A stretch of 49,056 bases of DNA. It comes from Trueperaceae bacterium. GTDB lineage: Bacteria > Deinococcota > Deinococci > Deinococcales > Trueperaceae. The translations under genes and the position numbers were made by a program. The number at the start of each line of letters is the position of its first letter. Position 1 is the stretch's first letter. The stretch spans positions 1 through 49,056 of the forward strand of contig REEJ01000298.1 in assembly GCA_007695125.1 (NCBI GenBank). Reading direction: 5' to 3'. This document shows, in pieces, positions 40,343 to 45,397 of this stretch. The notes under the pieces are model-generated. The model saw only the letters and a program-made list of their open reading frames with translations. It was not told where the DNA came from and did no database searches.

Positions 40343-42541
40343 TCAGCGGCGCTTGCGGCCGCTGGGCTTGCGGTCGATCACCTGGGACACGTCGATCTCG
40401 TCGTCAGGATCCTCGCCGAAACCGGTGGCGAAGCCGCCGCCGAACAGCGCGTCCTGGCCACCACGCTTCTGGGCGGGCGTGGGCTCCGGTTCGGGAGCGG
40501 CATGCGTGCGTTGCGGTACGGACGCCGACGCCGGTACGGACACGGCCTCGCGCGCCTCGGACACACCGCTGCGACCCTTCGCAGGCGGCTGGACCCGCGG
40601 CTCGGGCCGCGGCGCCGGGCGCCGCTCCTCGACGCGTGGTTCCGCTGCCGCCGCGCTCGCCTCGACGCGCGCGAAATCGACGTCGTCGGCCCCGATCGGG
40701 TCGAGCGGCGACGTCACCTCTTCGTCCGAGAAGCCCCGCACGCGGGGCCGCTGCCGCTCGGGCAAGCGAGCGCGCAACGAGGTGGCGTACTCGGCCACCT
40801 GGTCCAGGGCGTCGTGGACGCGGTACCGCAGACAGAACTCACCGTTGTCGACCTTGCTGATCAGGTGGAACGGGGCCTCGGAGAGACGCTCGAGCACGCG
40901 CACGATCTGGTCGCGCGACACGTCCGTGTCGCCGGTGAGGTCCTCGATCACGAAGACCGCGGGGGCACGCAGGCCCGCGAGGCGGGTGAGCACCGTCGAC
41001 ACGACGCCCTTCTCCTGCACGCGCTTCGCGACGCTGCGCTCGAAGCGCTCGAGACCGTATTCGAACATGCCGTCGCGCTCGAAGTGCGGCTCGAGGTCGA
41101 CGGGGCCCAGCATGACCGTGCCGACCAGGTCGAGCACGCGCTCGACGCCCGCCCACGACCAGAGCGTGGCCCGGGCGAGATCGGCAGGTGCGGTCAAGCG
41201 GTGCAGGTCGCGGTGGTCGCCGACGACTGCGAGGTACGTCGCGCCCGACTCGCGCCGGCGCGCCAACAGCGCCGCCCAGTCGAGGCGCTGCTCGTCCGGG
41301 AGCACGTGGAGCAGCACCTTGTGCTGGCGTCGACCGAGGTCGGCATGCAGCATCAACTGGCCGTGGGCCAGGCCCTCGACGCGATAGCCAACACTGGCGA
41401 AGGCCTCACGGGCGCGCTTGGTCTTGACCGGATCGCCGGGCGGCAACGAGGCGCTGTTGAGCGCGGTGTCGCTCGGGAACAGCGTGGCGCGCGGGGTCGG
41501 CACGACGGTCGGCCGCGTGGCCGAAGGGCGAGCCTCACCCAACCGGTCGAGCCGGAACGGGTCCTTGGTGGGAGCGCTCGGCTCAGGTCCGCTCTTGATC
41601 GTCTTGGCCTTCGCCCGCTGCCACGGGAACCTGAACCCGCGGCCGACGGGCTCGTTCCAATCGAAACGCTCCGCCCCGTCACCGGACTCGGCCTCACCGG
41701 CGACCTCGCGCTCGGCGGCGCGGGCGTCGGCGCGAGCGTCCCGCTCGCGCCGCGCATGCGCGCGCGTGTCTTCCTCGGCGCGCTCGTTCAACGAGGCACG
41801 GCTGATTCGCTCGGCTTCGGCGCGATCGTCCTGGACGTCTGGATGGGCCGGGCTCGGTTCCTCGGCCCGGGCGGCGTCGCGGTCGGCCTCGCGTTCGGCC
41901 GCCGCTCTGGCCGCCGCCTCGGCGCGGCGCTCGGCCTCGCGCTGTTCGGCGACCTTCGCGGCCGCATCGGCGCGGCGCTCGGCCTCCGCTGCGGCCTCGG
42001 CGCGGCGCGCCGCCTCTGCCTGCTTGCGCTCCGCCGCCGCCCGCTCGACGGCACGGCGCTCCTCTTCGAGCGCCAGGCTCGATTGCCAGCGCCCTTGGTG
42101 GAGCGTCAGACGCTCATCGGCTTCGAGCGCCTGCCTGAGCGGGAAGCCAGTCGGCACGTCCGGGTGGAGCGCGCGGATCTCGCCTTCCGTCATGGGCACG
42201 CCGGCCTCGGCCACCTCGTCGATCAGTCGACCGAGGACCTCGGGGCGGTGGTAATCGGGCTTCCTGACGCGCTTCACCGCGGTGAGGCCGAGGCCACCGT
42301 CGTCGAGGGCCTTCACGACGATCTCGTCGTTGACCTCGAGCGCGTGCTCGACGAAGAACTCGTCCAGGCCGCTCACCTGCCGGCCCTCGACGTGCAACAG
42401 CACCTCGCCTCCACGCAGGGTGTCCTGCGCGGCGACTTCGCCATCGTCCGGGAAGACCTGCAGCATCCCCAACGGAAGGGTGAGGGTGCCGCTCCGCAGG
42501 CAGATGCGCGTGAGTGGATACCGGAACTCCTGGGCCATCAT
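40343..42541 (-). CDS. Large uncharacterised protein: wHTH-like, coiled-coil and possible restriction-fold regions
   Basis: I do not recognise this 732-residue protein. ATG 42541 has GGGAG 8 nt upstream. Regions in order: residues 1-90, a beta-rich domain (RICLRSGTLTLPLGMLQVFP, GGEVLLHVEGRQVSGLDEFF); 95-152, winged-helix-like (RPEVLGRLIDEVAEAG, ALEADERLTLHQGRW); 155-285, an uninterrupted Ala/Glu/Arg helix, probably a coiled coil. Residues 373-475 form an alpha/beta domain containing D401 and Q406-H-K408 (LMLHADLGRRQHKVLL) then TYLAVVGDHRDLHRL, loosely like the D...QxK core of Mrr-type nucleases. Residues 485-595 are helical, with ISKVDNGEFCLRYRVHDALD resembling a second wing. A Pro/Arg-rich tail ends SGRKRR. 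No signal peptide. A DNA- or RNA-associated cytoplasmic role is inferred only. Confidence 0.75.
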   Translation of the reverse strand: MMAQEFRYPLTRICLRSGTLTLPLGMLQVFPDDGEVAAQDTLRGGEVLLHVEGRQVSGLDEFFVEHALEVNDEIVVKALDDGGLGLTAVKRVRKPDYHRPEVLGRLIDEVAEAGVPMTEGEIRALHPDVPTGFPLRQALEADERLTLHQGRWQSSLALEEERRAVERAAAERKQAEAARRAEAAAEAERRADAAAKVAEQREAERRAEAAARAAAEREADRDAARAEEPSPAHPDVQDDRAEAERISRASLNERAEEDTRAHARRERDARADARAAEREVAGEAESGDGAERFDWNEPVGRGFRFPWQRAKAKTIKSGPEPSAPTKDPFRLDRLGEARPSATRPTVVPTPRATLFPSDTALNSASLPPGDPVKTKRAREAFASVGYRVEGLAHGQLMLHADLGRRQHKVLLHVLPDEQRLDWAALLARRRESGATYLAVVGDHRDLHRLTAPADLARATLWSWAGVERVLDLVGTVMLGPVDLEPHFERDGMFEYGLERFERSVAKRVQEKGVVSTVLTRLAGLRAPAVFVIEDLTGDTDVSRDQIVRVLERLSEAPFHLISKVDNGEFCLRYRVHDALDQVAEYATSLRARLPERQRPRVRGFSDEEVTSPLDPIGADDVDFARVEASAAAAEPRVEERRPAPRPEPRVQPPAKGRSGVSEAREAVSVPASASVPQRTHAAPEPEPTPAQKRGGQDALFGGGFATGFGEDPDDEIDVSQVIDRKPSGRKRR

Positions 42542-42608
42542 GTCCCTCGCTCCCTGTTCGCGCCGCTCAGGGCCACACCCGCCGCGTAGTGAGCGCTGGG
42601 TACCAGAT

Positions 42609-42636
42609 GATGTACCGCGGGCATTGGCGTTGACAA
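42609..42636 (-). promoter_or_regulatory. Candidate promoter of the 732-residue gene
   Basis: On the minus strand TTGTCA (42636-42631) and TACATC (42614-42609) are 16 bp apart, about 68 bp before the start codon. The gap 42542-42724 holds nothing else that I can identify. Confidence 0.4.
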
Positions 42637-42724
42637 CATTCGTGACATGGTAGCAGACCACGGCAACCGATGTGGCAGGCGCGCGCCTGCCGCCGGACTC
42701 AGCGGCACACGCGCGCCACCGGCA

Positions 42725-45397
42725 TCAGCCGAACACCAACTTGCGGCGCTTGCGGGGTCGCCCGGCAGCGCTCGCGGGTACGGTCGCGGGAGCCTGCTTC
42801 GCGGGTGGTGGCGGCGCGACGGCGGGCTTCGCGTCGCCGCGCTTGGCATCGCTGCGCGTGGCGGGCGGCGCCTTCGCTGCCAGCGCGGAACGGTCGTCGG
42901 CGGCCTTGCGCCGACGCTTGCCGCTCGACGGCGCAGGCTCTGGCTGCGCGGCTGCCTTCGCTGCTTTCGCGGCCTTCGCAGACCCGCGCGTGGCCGCCTG
43001 CGTGGCAGCAGCCTCGGCTGCGTCCGCTTGGGCACCCTTCTTGGGCCCCCTGCCTGACGCTTTGCCTGACGCCTTGCCTGATGCCTTCCCTGACGGCTTC
43101 TCGGCCGGCTGCGCGGTCGCCTTCGCCGGCTTCCTGGTACCCCGCTTGGGCGCGGACACGCCAGGGGTGGCGGCGCCAGCCTCGAGCGGCGACTTGAGAG
43201 GGGTCTTGGGCGGACGTCCAGGCCGCGCGGCCTGCGCCTCGCGTTCGGCCACCTCGTCGGGATCGACCTCCGGCAGCTCCATGTGGGCCGGCAGCAGGTC
43301 GATCTGCCGGTTCACCGGGTTGCTCGCCAGGATCTTGACCTCGACGCGATCGCCCATCCGGTAGCGCTTGCGCGTCGACTTGCCCATCAGCATCAGCTGG
43401 TCCTCGAGGAACAAGTAGTAGTCGTCCTCGAGCTGCGACACGTGCATCAGCCCCTCGACGCCGTTCGGCAAGGCCAGGAACACGCCGAAGTTGGTGACGC
43501 CGGAGATGGTCGCCGTGAAGCTCTCGCCCACGTGATCGCGCGCCCAGACGGCGTGGAAGTACTTGGTGAGATCGCGCTCGGCGTCCTCGGCCACGCGCTC
43601 GCGGGTGCTGACGTGCTCCGCGAGCTTCGGGAAGTCGTGGCGCAGACGCTCCTTCAGGGTCGGCGCCAAGCGGTGCTGCAACATCGCACGCAGCACCCTG
43701 TGGACCACCAGGTCGGGGTAGCGCCGGATGGGGCTGGTGAAGTGGAGGTAGTTCTCGAACGCCAGGCCGTAGTGCCCCAGGTTCTCGCTCGAGTAGCGAG
43801 CCTGCTTGAGGCTGCGCAGCAGCAACGTGCTCACGAGCTGCGACTCGGGCTTCCCGGCCGCCTGCTTGAGCACCGCCTGCAGGTCCTGCGGCTTCGGGTC
43901 GGCCAGATCGACCTGGTAACCGAGCCGCTGCAACGCCTTCTGGAGGATCTGGATCTTCTCGGCGCTCGGGTCCTCGTGCACGCGGTAGAGGGCCGGCAGG
44001 TCGCGCTTGCGCATCTCTTGCGCCACCAGGCGGTTGGCGAGGAGCATCATCTCCTCCACCAGCTGCCGCGCGGCGTTGCTCGAGACCGGCGTGAGGTGCA
44101 GGTCGCCTCGCTCGTCGACGTCGACCTTCGCCTCGGTGAAGTCGAAGTCGAGCGCGCCCGCGCCGATGCGCAGGGCACGGAGGGTCTTCGACACGTCGAG
44201 GAGGACCTTGACGTCGCGCTCGAGCTTGAGCTTGCCGGCCGGGAGGCGGCCGCCCTCGGCGAACGCCTGCACCTGCTCGTAGGTGAGGCGGGCATCGGAG
44301 CGGATCACGGTCTCCTTGAACGCGACCTTCTTGACCTCGCCCTCGCGCGTGAGGTCGACGAAGCACGACAGCGCAAGCCGCGCCTCGCCCTCGACGAGCG
44401 AGCAGATGCCGTTCGACAGCTGCTCCGGAAGCATGGGCAGGACCTTGCCGGGGAGGTACACGCTGGTCGCGCGCTCCACGGCCTCCCGGTCCAGGCTCGT
44501 GCCCTCTGCCACGTAGTAGCTGACGTCGGCGATGTGGACACCGATGCGCAGCTGCTGGGCCTTGCCGCGACCGCCGACACGCTCGACCGAGAGCGCGTCG
44601 TCGAAGTCCTTGGCGTCGCTGCCGTCGATCGTGAAGGTGGGTACGTCACGGATGTCGGTGCGCCCGGCGAGCATCTCGGCGTCGACGTCCGGCGGCACCG
44701 CCGCGGCCTCGGCCAGGGTCTCGGGATCGAAGGCGTCCTTGAGGCCGTACTTGACGATCACCGCGCGCGTCTCGACGGCCGGGTCGTCGCCATCGCCGAG
44801 CACCTCGTCGACCTCGGCGAAGGGCTCGCGCTCGCCGGAGGACTCGGGCCAGATCATCGTGCCTACGATGCGCATGCCGGCCTCGAGCGTGCCGACCGAG
44901 TCGGGCAGGAGCAGGATGCGCTCGCGCAAGCGCACCGAGTCGGGGCGCAAGATCGCATAGCCCTGGGCGTACTCGAGCGTGCCGACCACGAGGGCGTGGC
45001 CGCGCTCGAGGATGCGCACGACCTCACCCGAGGCGCGCCCGTTGTCGCTGCGCAGCGGCATCGGCCGCGCCAGGACGGTGTCGCCGTCCCACGCCCCGCC
45101 GAGTCGCTCGGCCGGGATGAAGAGGTCCTTGATGCTGCGGTCCTCGTTGAGTACGAAGCCGTAACCGCCGGCCGTGACCTGGAGCCGCCCACGAACGAGG
45201 TTCATCTCCTCGGGGAGCCCGTAGGTACGGCGCCTGGTACGCACCAAGCGGCCGTCGTCGACGAGATCGGAGAGGACCTGGCGCAACGCCGTGCGGTCCT
45301 CGACCTCGAGTCGCTTCTGCACGTCTTGCACGTGCCACGGCCGTTCGGGGTGCTGGTGGAAGAACTGGAATACCTGCTCGCGATCGATCTCGCTCAT
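42725..45397 (-). CDS. rnr: Ribonuclease R (RNB-family 3'-5' exoribonuclease)
   Basis: Processive exonuclease for structured RNA, used in mRNA decay and rRNA quality control. The 890-residue protein has a winged-helix N-terminus (FHQHPERPWHVQDVQKRLEV) and cold-shock domains (LQVTAGGYGFVLNEDRSIKDLFIP). The RNB core has metal-binding acidic residues in IDGSDAKDFDDAL (Asp258, 264, 266, 267), and HVGESFTATISGVTNFGVFLALPNGVEGLMHVSQL (split) is the S1 domain. A 185-residue low-complexity tail follows S1, rich in Lys, Ala and Pro with three GKAS repeats, ending RKRRKLVFG. ATG 45397 fits the TACACT box 8 bp upstream. Confidence 0.96.
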   Translation of the reverse strand: MSEIDREQVFQFFHQHPERPWHVQDVQKRLEVEDRTALRQVLSDLVDDGRLVRTRRRTYGLPEEMNLVRGRLQVTAGGYGFVLNEDRSIKDLFIPAERLGGAWDGDTVLARPMPLRSDNGRASGEVVRILERGHALVVGTLEYAQGYAILRPDSVRLRERILLLPDSVGTLEAGMRIVGTMIWPESSGEREPFAEVDEVLGDGDDPAVETRAVIVKYGLKDAFDPETLAEAAAVPPDVDAEMLAGRTDIRDVPTFTIDGSDAKDFDDALSVERVGGRGKAQQLRIGVHIADVSYYVAEGTSLDREAVERATSVYLPGKVLPMLPEQLSNGICSLVEGEARLALSCFVDLTREGEVKKVAFKETVIRSDARLTYEQVQAFAEGGRLPAGKLKLERDVKVLLDVSKTLRALRIGAGALDFDFTEAKVDVDERGDLHLTPVSSNAARQLVEEMMLLANRLVAQEMRKRDLPALYRVHEDPSAEKIQILQKALQRLGYQVDLADPKPQDLQAVLKQAAGKPESQLVSTLLLRSLKQARYSSENLGHYGLAFENYLHFTSPIRRYPDLVVHRVLRAMLQHRLAPTLKERLRHDFPKLAEHVSTRERVAEDAERDLTKYFHAVWARDHVGESFTATISGVTNFGVFLALPNGVEGLMHVSQLEDDYYLFLEDQLMLMGKSTRKRYRMGDRVEVKILASNPVNRQIDLLPAHMELPEVDPDEVAEREAQAARPGRPPKTPLKSPLEAGAATPGVSAPKRGTRKPAKATAQPAEKPSGKASGKASGKASGRGPKKGAQADAAEAAATQAATRGSAKAAKAAKAAAQPEPAPSSGKRRRKAADDRSALAAKAPPATRSDAKRGDAKPAVAPPPPAKQAPATVPASAAGRPRKRRKLVFG
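43051..43098 (-). repeat. Four 12-bp tandem repeats in the rnr tail
   Basis: Units TGCCTGACGCTT, TGCCTGACGCCT, TGCCTGATGCCT and TCCCTGACGGCT (plus strand) encode repeated Ser-Gly-Lys-Ala blocks of the basic C-terminal tail. The number of copies may vary between strains. Confidence 0.85.

Follow-up and report, generated by a model that had tools for sequence, protein, structure and literature searches.

A single-copy protein family of the Deinococcota joins a probable B3-like domain to predicted winged helices

The window analysed here is the whole 49,056 nt stretch of contig REEJ01000298.1 from a Trueperaceae bacterium. On its minus strand a gene of 732 codons runs from position 42541 to 40343, convergent with carB. 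The gene for RNase R, rnr (42725-45397, minus strand), is located upstream on the same strand, in keeping with the original remark that the two lie side by side, and is separated from our gene by a gap of 183 nt. The features of the gene and of this gap are listed below, with the evidence on which each assignment is based.

42607..42636, minus strand: hexamers TTGTCA-18-CATCAT resembling a promoter, between rnr and the gene (consensus match only)
42599..42616, minus strand: inverted repeat GGTAC-ATCATCTG-GTACC with an N8 spacer, candidate operator (located upstream of the start codon, between rnr and the gene)
40343..42541, minus strand: whole coding sequence, 732 aa plus stop, Deinococcota-specific protein with predicted B3-like and winged helix-turn-helix (wHTH) domains
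42266..42529, minus strand: residues 5-92, probable B3-like pseudobarrel domain (A1 alignment, Pfam B3, hhalign with shuffles, Foldseek)
42077..42250, minus strand: residues 98-155, predicted winged-helix domain, Trueperaceae only (AlphaFold2, Foldseek)
41666..42073, minus strand: residues 157-292, Ala/Glu/Arg-rich segment (composition and heptad test)
41465..41515, minus strand: residues 343-359, short conserved linker motif, here TVVPTPRATLFP (alignments)
41120..41428, minus strand: residues 372-474, alpha/beta domain with a conserved LGRR (A2 alignment, model, Foldseek, hhalign)
40814..40999, minus strand: residues 515-576, putative C-terminal winged-helix-like domain (hhalign to paralogue C-termini, weak Pfam WHD_MCM8)

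The plus strand of 40343-42541 is also open, in an unrelated frame. Homologues with a matching reading frame are present in 58 of 61 related genomes, and the 732-aa frame is therefore a real gene; a protein of 732 residues and unknown function had indeed been predicted here. No entry matching it was found in the Pfam, NCBIfam and PDB sequence libraries, direct searches of the PDB with profiles of the protein returned nothing relevant, and a search of the literature for a named homologue found none. The earlier statement that the protein matches no family thus holds for these libraries, although the protein belongs to an unnamed family that is conserved throughout a phylum. This family, its distribution, its domain relationships, the absence of a conserved D/Q/K set and the gene order were all obtained by computation.

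The distribution was determined with a profile of the C-terminal core (A2; residues 372-602, alignment of 50 sequences). The core was detected in 101 of 111 Deinococcota genomes, representing 31 of 31 genera, and in 83 of the 85 genomes of good quality, almost always as one copy per genome; the genomes that lacked a match were mostly incomplete assemblies. Searched with the same profile, 279 non-Deinococcota bacterial genomes gave no match. Thus, rather than a lineage orphan, the protein is a phylum-wide, single-copy family, and it is vertically inherited within the Deinococcota. In the Thermus-like families the protein is only ~350-450 aa long and consists, in this order, of the B3-like domain, a short proline-rich linker, the alpha/beta domain and a winged helix. 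Judged by sequence, the Trueperaceae have added to this core the long tether and the winged helix that precedes it. The AlphaFold2 models indicate that the domain order originally proposed (beta-rich domain, winged helix, Ala/Glu/Arg-rich segment, alpha/beta domain, helical domain) is broadly right.

B3 domains are seven-stranded pseudobarrels that read DNA in plant transcription factors and in restriction enzymes. Several lines of evidence suggest that the beta-rich N-terminus is most likely B3-like. In an alignment of 47 homologous N-domains (A1), C14, G18, G58 and N71 are invariant. Pfam B3 (PF02362) was the family matched by most A1 members (12 of 47, best E 0.0015), all of these matches being under the curated Pfam cut-off; weak matches to MazE/AbrB-type folds were obtained for 5 of the 47. 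The 732-aa protein by itself gave no PF02362 match, and a PF02362 search of the 61 related genomes found nothing. Comparison of A1 with six plant B3 domains using hhalign resulted in a probability of 76% (E 2e-5) and a score of 32; the reversed profile gave 0.4% and 100 column shuffles a maximum score of 18.5, so that the similarity to bona fide B3 domains exceeds that expected at random. Residues 5-92 share with B3 domains (PF02362; RAV1/ARF/VAL1; the C-terminus of BfiI, the N-terminus of EcoRII and the NgoAVII R-protein) a succession of motifs, as seen with Pfam, profile-profile and fold searches: LPxx..., a strand pair with acidic-G, a helix with G-x-x-x-F/Y and a strand with L-x-x-N/G-D. 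The AlphaFold2 model of this part, built from only three close sequences, has a pLDDT of 31-62 and is poor over residues 14-58. Top PDB matches of this low-confidence model in Foldseek, all with E values of at least 0.3, included the B3 domains of ARF5, ARF1, VRN1 and RAV1 and the B3-like N-domain of the restriction enzyme LlaJI. The separate lines of evidence point the same way, though no single one is conclusive, and we therefore use the label B3-like instead of assigning the domain to the B3 family, the cut-off of which it does not reach. Bacterial B3 domains are known from the restriction enzymes BfiI, CglI and NgoAVII (PMC4267653, PMC4081073), and the similarity of EcoRII to B3 has been noted (PMC2688026). 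Unlike these enzymes, the Deinococcota protein is encoded by a single-copy gene of the phylum core and lacks a recognisable nuclease active site.

A winged-helix-like segment had been predicted to follow the beta-rich domain, and the model agrees with this. Residues 98-155 are modelled with a pLDDT of about 90 as three helices (100-112, 119-125 and 135-141) followed by a beta wing (strands 145-148 and 151-154), and Foldseek returned wHTH matches for them. This predicted winged helix is missing from the Thermaceae homologues, in which a linker of 35-50 aa is present. Two candidate relatives were rejected: the HARE-HTH family (PF05066) matches elsewhere in Thermus-like genomes but never on this gene, and comparison with the winged-helix-like N-terminus of the exonuclease described below scored 15.0, less than the reversed control (17.7; hhalign).

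The segment that follows, residues 157-292, had been taken for a coiled coil of 130 residues. It is indeed rich in Ala, Glu and Arg, yet contains only 3 large hydrophobic residues in 72 positions and 3 in 56, and heptad enrichment is absent (P 0.14-1.0). It is probably a charged single helix or a flexible tether rather than a heptad coiled coil. Nor is a long rod a defining feature of the family, since the length of the linker is not conserved and varies from 35 to 345 aa. The related idea of a DNA-bridging protein with globular ends fares better, in that sequence comparisons and models support predicted DNA-binding ends around the tether. What is widespread in the linker is the motif near its end, V(T/V)P(Y/T)P...(L/I)(Y/F)P in its general form and VTPYPKEVLYP in other members, in which all 49 aligned sequences have P348.

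At the other end, the conserved core appears to finish, with low confidence, in a second winged-helix-like domain (residues 515-576). The model of this region is of low confidence and the matches to Pfam WHD_MCM8 are weak; hhalign aligned the region to the C-terminal domain found in paralogues from the Trueperaceae, with a probability of 78.6% and a score of 33.5 (shuffle maximum 21.7). These paralogues are extra proteins, present in several Trueperaceae genera, in which a long disordered stretch separates the N-domain from a winged-helix-like domain at the C-terminus. Both their ends are homologous to those of the 732-aa protein, but they lack the alpha/beta domain (loci L104-L122; L123, from the same set, has this domain and seems to be a diverged main-family copy). 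As the paralogues keep the ends alone and their C-termini are homologous, the B3-like and wHTH ends are likely to be shared functional units and the middle to be replaceable.

The gap between rnr and the gene contains one sigma-70-like site where 0.0 were expected. This consensus match makes a promoter of its own, as originally claimed, possible. The inverted repeat GGTAC-N8-GTACC is conserved in the Trueperaceae genera g1 and g16, with a near-match in g14, and its copy here is the only exact one in the genome assembly. We rejected a regulon for it: other sites appear only at two mismatches, without excess over a backward control. The repeat is a candidate operator, but it could instead be an RNA hairpin or part of the promoter. 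A short frame of about 33 codons (ATGTTG...; about 42541-42642, minus strand) begins just after an extended -10-like sequence, TGCTACCAT, and ends at a TGATG that overlaps the start codon; its position is kept in several relatives and its peptide partly.

In 16 genomes of Trueperaceae, rnr is the gene that precedes the main gene. Outside the Trueperaceae, a DEDDh exonuclease gene (Pfam RNase_T, E down to 1e-35) is located directly upstream, abutting or overlapping, in 17 of 20 loci, and is often itself preceded by gatA. The DEDDh exonuclease (L028:3837-4718, plus strand, and equivalents) carries an uncharacterised winged-helix-like N-terminal segment, LLDGRF...GLWEW...FP. Five of the Trueperaceae paralogue genes (L106, L109, L112, L119 and L121, genus g7) also lie directly downstream of DEDDh exonuclease genes, an arrangement that mirrors that in Thermaceae. 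Family f2 forms an exception, with a purine phosphorylase (PNP) gene downstream and cdaA divergent: in loci L043 and L041 the gene diverges from cdaA-ybbR, involved in c-di-AMP synthesis, and in L043 it overlaps the purine phosphorylase-family gene by 4 nt. We infer that the D. radiodurans counterpart lies beside CdaA (DR0007); this counterpart is absent from the text of PMC4401554. An apparent fusion of RNase R with a B3-like domain in L050 proved to be only an out-of-frame overlap.

The neighbourhood hints at a role in nucleic acid ends or turnover. An alternative to the reading preferred below is that the protein serves the neighbouring 3'-5' exonuclease, mostly the DEDDh enzyme and in Trueperaceae RNase R, as an accessory or targeting subunit, delivering it to DNA or RNA. 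The 17 loci, the 16 rnr neighbours and the independent recurrence of the arrangement upstream of the five paralogues argue for it. Nevertheless, the exonuclease neighbour is absent in f2 and in several Trueperaceae genera, RNase R and the DEDDh enzymes are unrelated to each other, no functional connection is obvious for gatA, which also belongs to the operon, and here the gene is set apart by the 183-nt gap and a possible promoter. Because neighbours vary by family (gatA-exonuclease, rnr or PNP/CdaA), the evidence from gene order is suggestive only, and we consider such a partnership unlikely.

Relatives of the N-domain were also sought outside the phylum. The A1 profile gave weak matches in two of the 279 non-Deinococcota genomes (E 1e-4 per genome), and searches for viral, phage and plasmid homologues, as far as the alignments were searchable, gave no match. 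In a 278-aa protein (L175:2091-2894, minus strand) a B3-like domain is followed by a PD-(D/E)XK endonuclease domain. Its N-domain corresponds to that of the Deinococcota family (92%, score 38, shuffle maximum 19; hhalign), and its second domain keeps GID...QVK and matches PDDEXK_5 (E 0.004) and the endonuclease of PDB entry 2ost (E 0.005). The gene adjoins a QueC-like gene and a gene of 520 aa with a weak Csm3-type match, in what is possibly a defence locus. A protein of 742 aa (L176:1447-3672, plus strand) combines an HTH resembling sigma-70 region 4 with a stretch that is possibly a winged helix and, at its C-terminus, one that is B3-like; its gene is directly 3' of that of an HSP90-like ATPase, with which it possibly forms a defence pair.

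The alpha/beta domain had been suggested as a possible degenerate nuclease fold that vaguely recalls Mrr, with D401, Q406 and K408 in the place of an active site. The three residues do occur in this protein. In a conservation check set beforehand to refute or retain this proposal, however, just 21 of the 50 homologues had D401, 11 had Q406 and 6 had K408; the proposed active site is thus refuted as judged by sequence. What stays conserved is L-G-R-R (G403 and R404, each in 47 of 50), and no other conserved set of acids and lysine was found in this region among the 50 sequences. The low-confidence model of residues 370-442 (pLDDT 50-63 over the first 72 residues) has the order alpha-beta-beta-beta-alpha-beta (H-E-E-E-H-E). 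Foldseek ranked tRNA-splicing endonucleases of archaea first among its PDB matches (E 0.007) and placed FokI and MspJI further down the list; sequence profiles gave no match to the tRNA-splicing enzymes. With hhalign, the score against Mrr_cat (PF04471) was 14.1, no better than column shuffles, 100 of which reached up to 17.5, and UPF0102, used as a generic restriction-endonuclease-like profile, gave a marginal 17.5 (shuffle maximum 15.0), which is a hint only. The domain could not be aligned with the nuclease domain of the L175 protein, and kinship with it was rejected. Profile-profile comparison supported a B3-like N-domain but not the likeness to Mrr. With no profile similarity above shuffles and no catalytic residues, the alpha/beta domain would share with Mrr_cat the same broad fold class at most. 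Of the degenerate nuclease, the fold retains weak support from the strand order and the tRNA-endonuclease match of the low-confidence model, whereas the proposed catalytic residues are not conserved, and an inactive restriction-endonuclease-like fold is possible.

The match to tRNA-splicing endonucleases, together with the neighbours rnr and gatA, might also point to a factor that binds or processes RNA, with the B3-like, restriction-endonuclease-like and wHTH domains all acting on RNA. To our knowledge, B3-type domains with a known function are DNA binders, and the match comes from a model with a pLDDT of about 55 without support from sequence profiles; we regard an RNA factor as improbable. 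An active PD-(D/E)XK or Mrr-type nuclease is largely refuted and very improbable, because neither the site, nor another acid/lysine set, nor a match to Mrr_cat or the L175 nuclease was found, for all that the modelled strand order, FokI and MspJI among the fold matches, the marginal UPF0102 score and the joining of the N-domain to a nuclease in L175 would speak for it.

The reading we prefer, with a probability of about 0.5, is that this Deinococcota family binds DNA in a multivalent and non-catalytic manner. Its constant core would comprise four parts: the B3-like domain; a linker that is flexible, contains proline and carries V(T/V)P(Y/T)P; an alpha/beta domain lacking catalytic residues, which perhaps has an inactive restriction-endonuclease-like fold; and the C-terminal winged helix. 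In the Trueperaceae version a further winged helix and the long charged tether would be added. DNA binding would be bivalent, one contact being made by the B3-like head and the other by one or more winged-helix heads, on separate DNA segments or on two half-sites, and the protein would act without catalysis as a regulator or as an architectural component of the chromosome. Autoregulation through the upstream inverted repeat is probable in this scheme, and a link to the 3'-5' exonuclease of the usually preceding gene may consist in a shared nucleic-acid context.

The presence of the N-domain together with a nuclease in L175 is the basis of a further hypothesis, which we put forward only tentatively as it is rather unlikely: an ancestor of the Deinococcota may have domesticated a B3 plus PD-(D/E)XK restriction or defence nuclease, which lost catalysis, gained a winged helix and became an obligatory chromosomal DNA-binding factor. 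If true, this would be a B3-domain housekeeping protein in bacteria.

Radiation resistance and thermophily have their model organisms among the Deinococcota. Compared with the original prediction, the distribution has become the more interesting aspect and the nuclease the less interesting one: the gene is present in every sampled genus of the phylum, apparently nowhere else, and is unnamed in the family libraries. Should it encode a B3-like DNA binder, the B3 fold would extend beyond plants and restriction enzymes, and the protein would be a concrete candidate for a role specific to the phylum, whether as a regulator, as a nucleoid factor or as the partner of an exonuclease.
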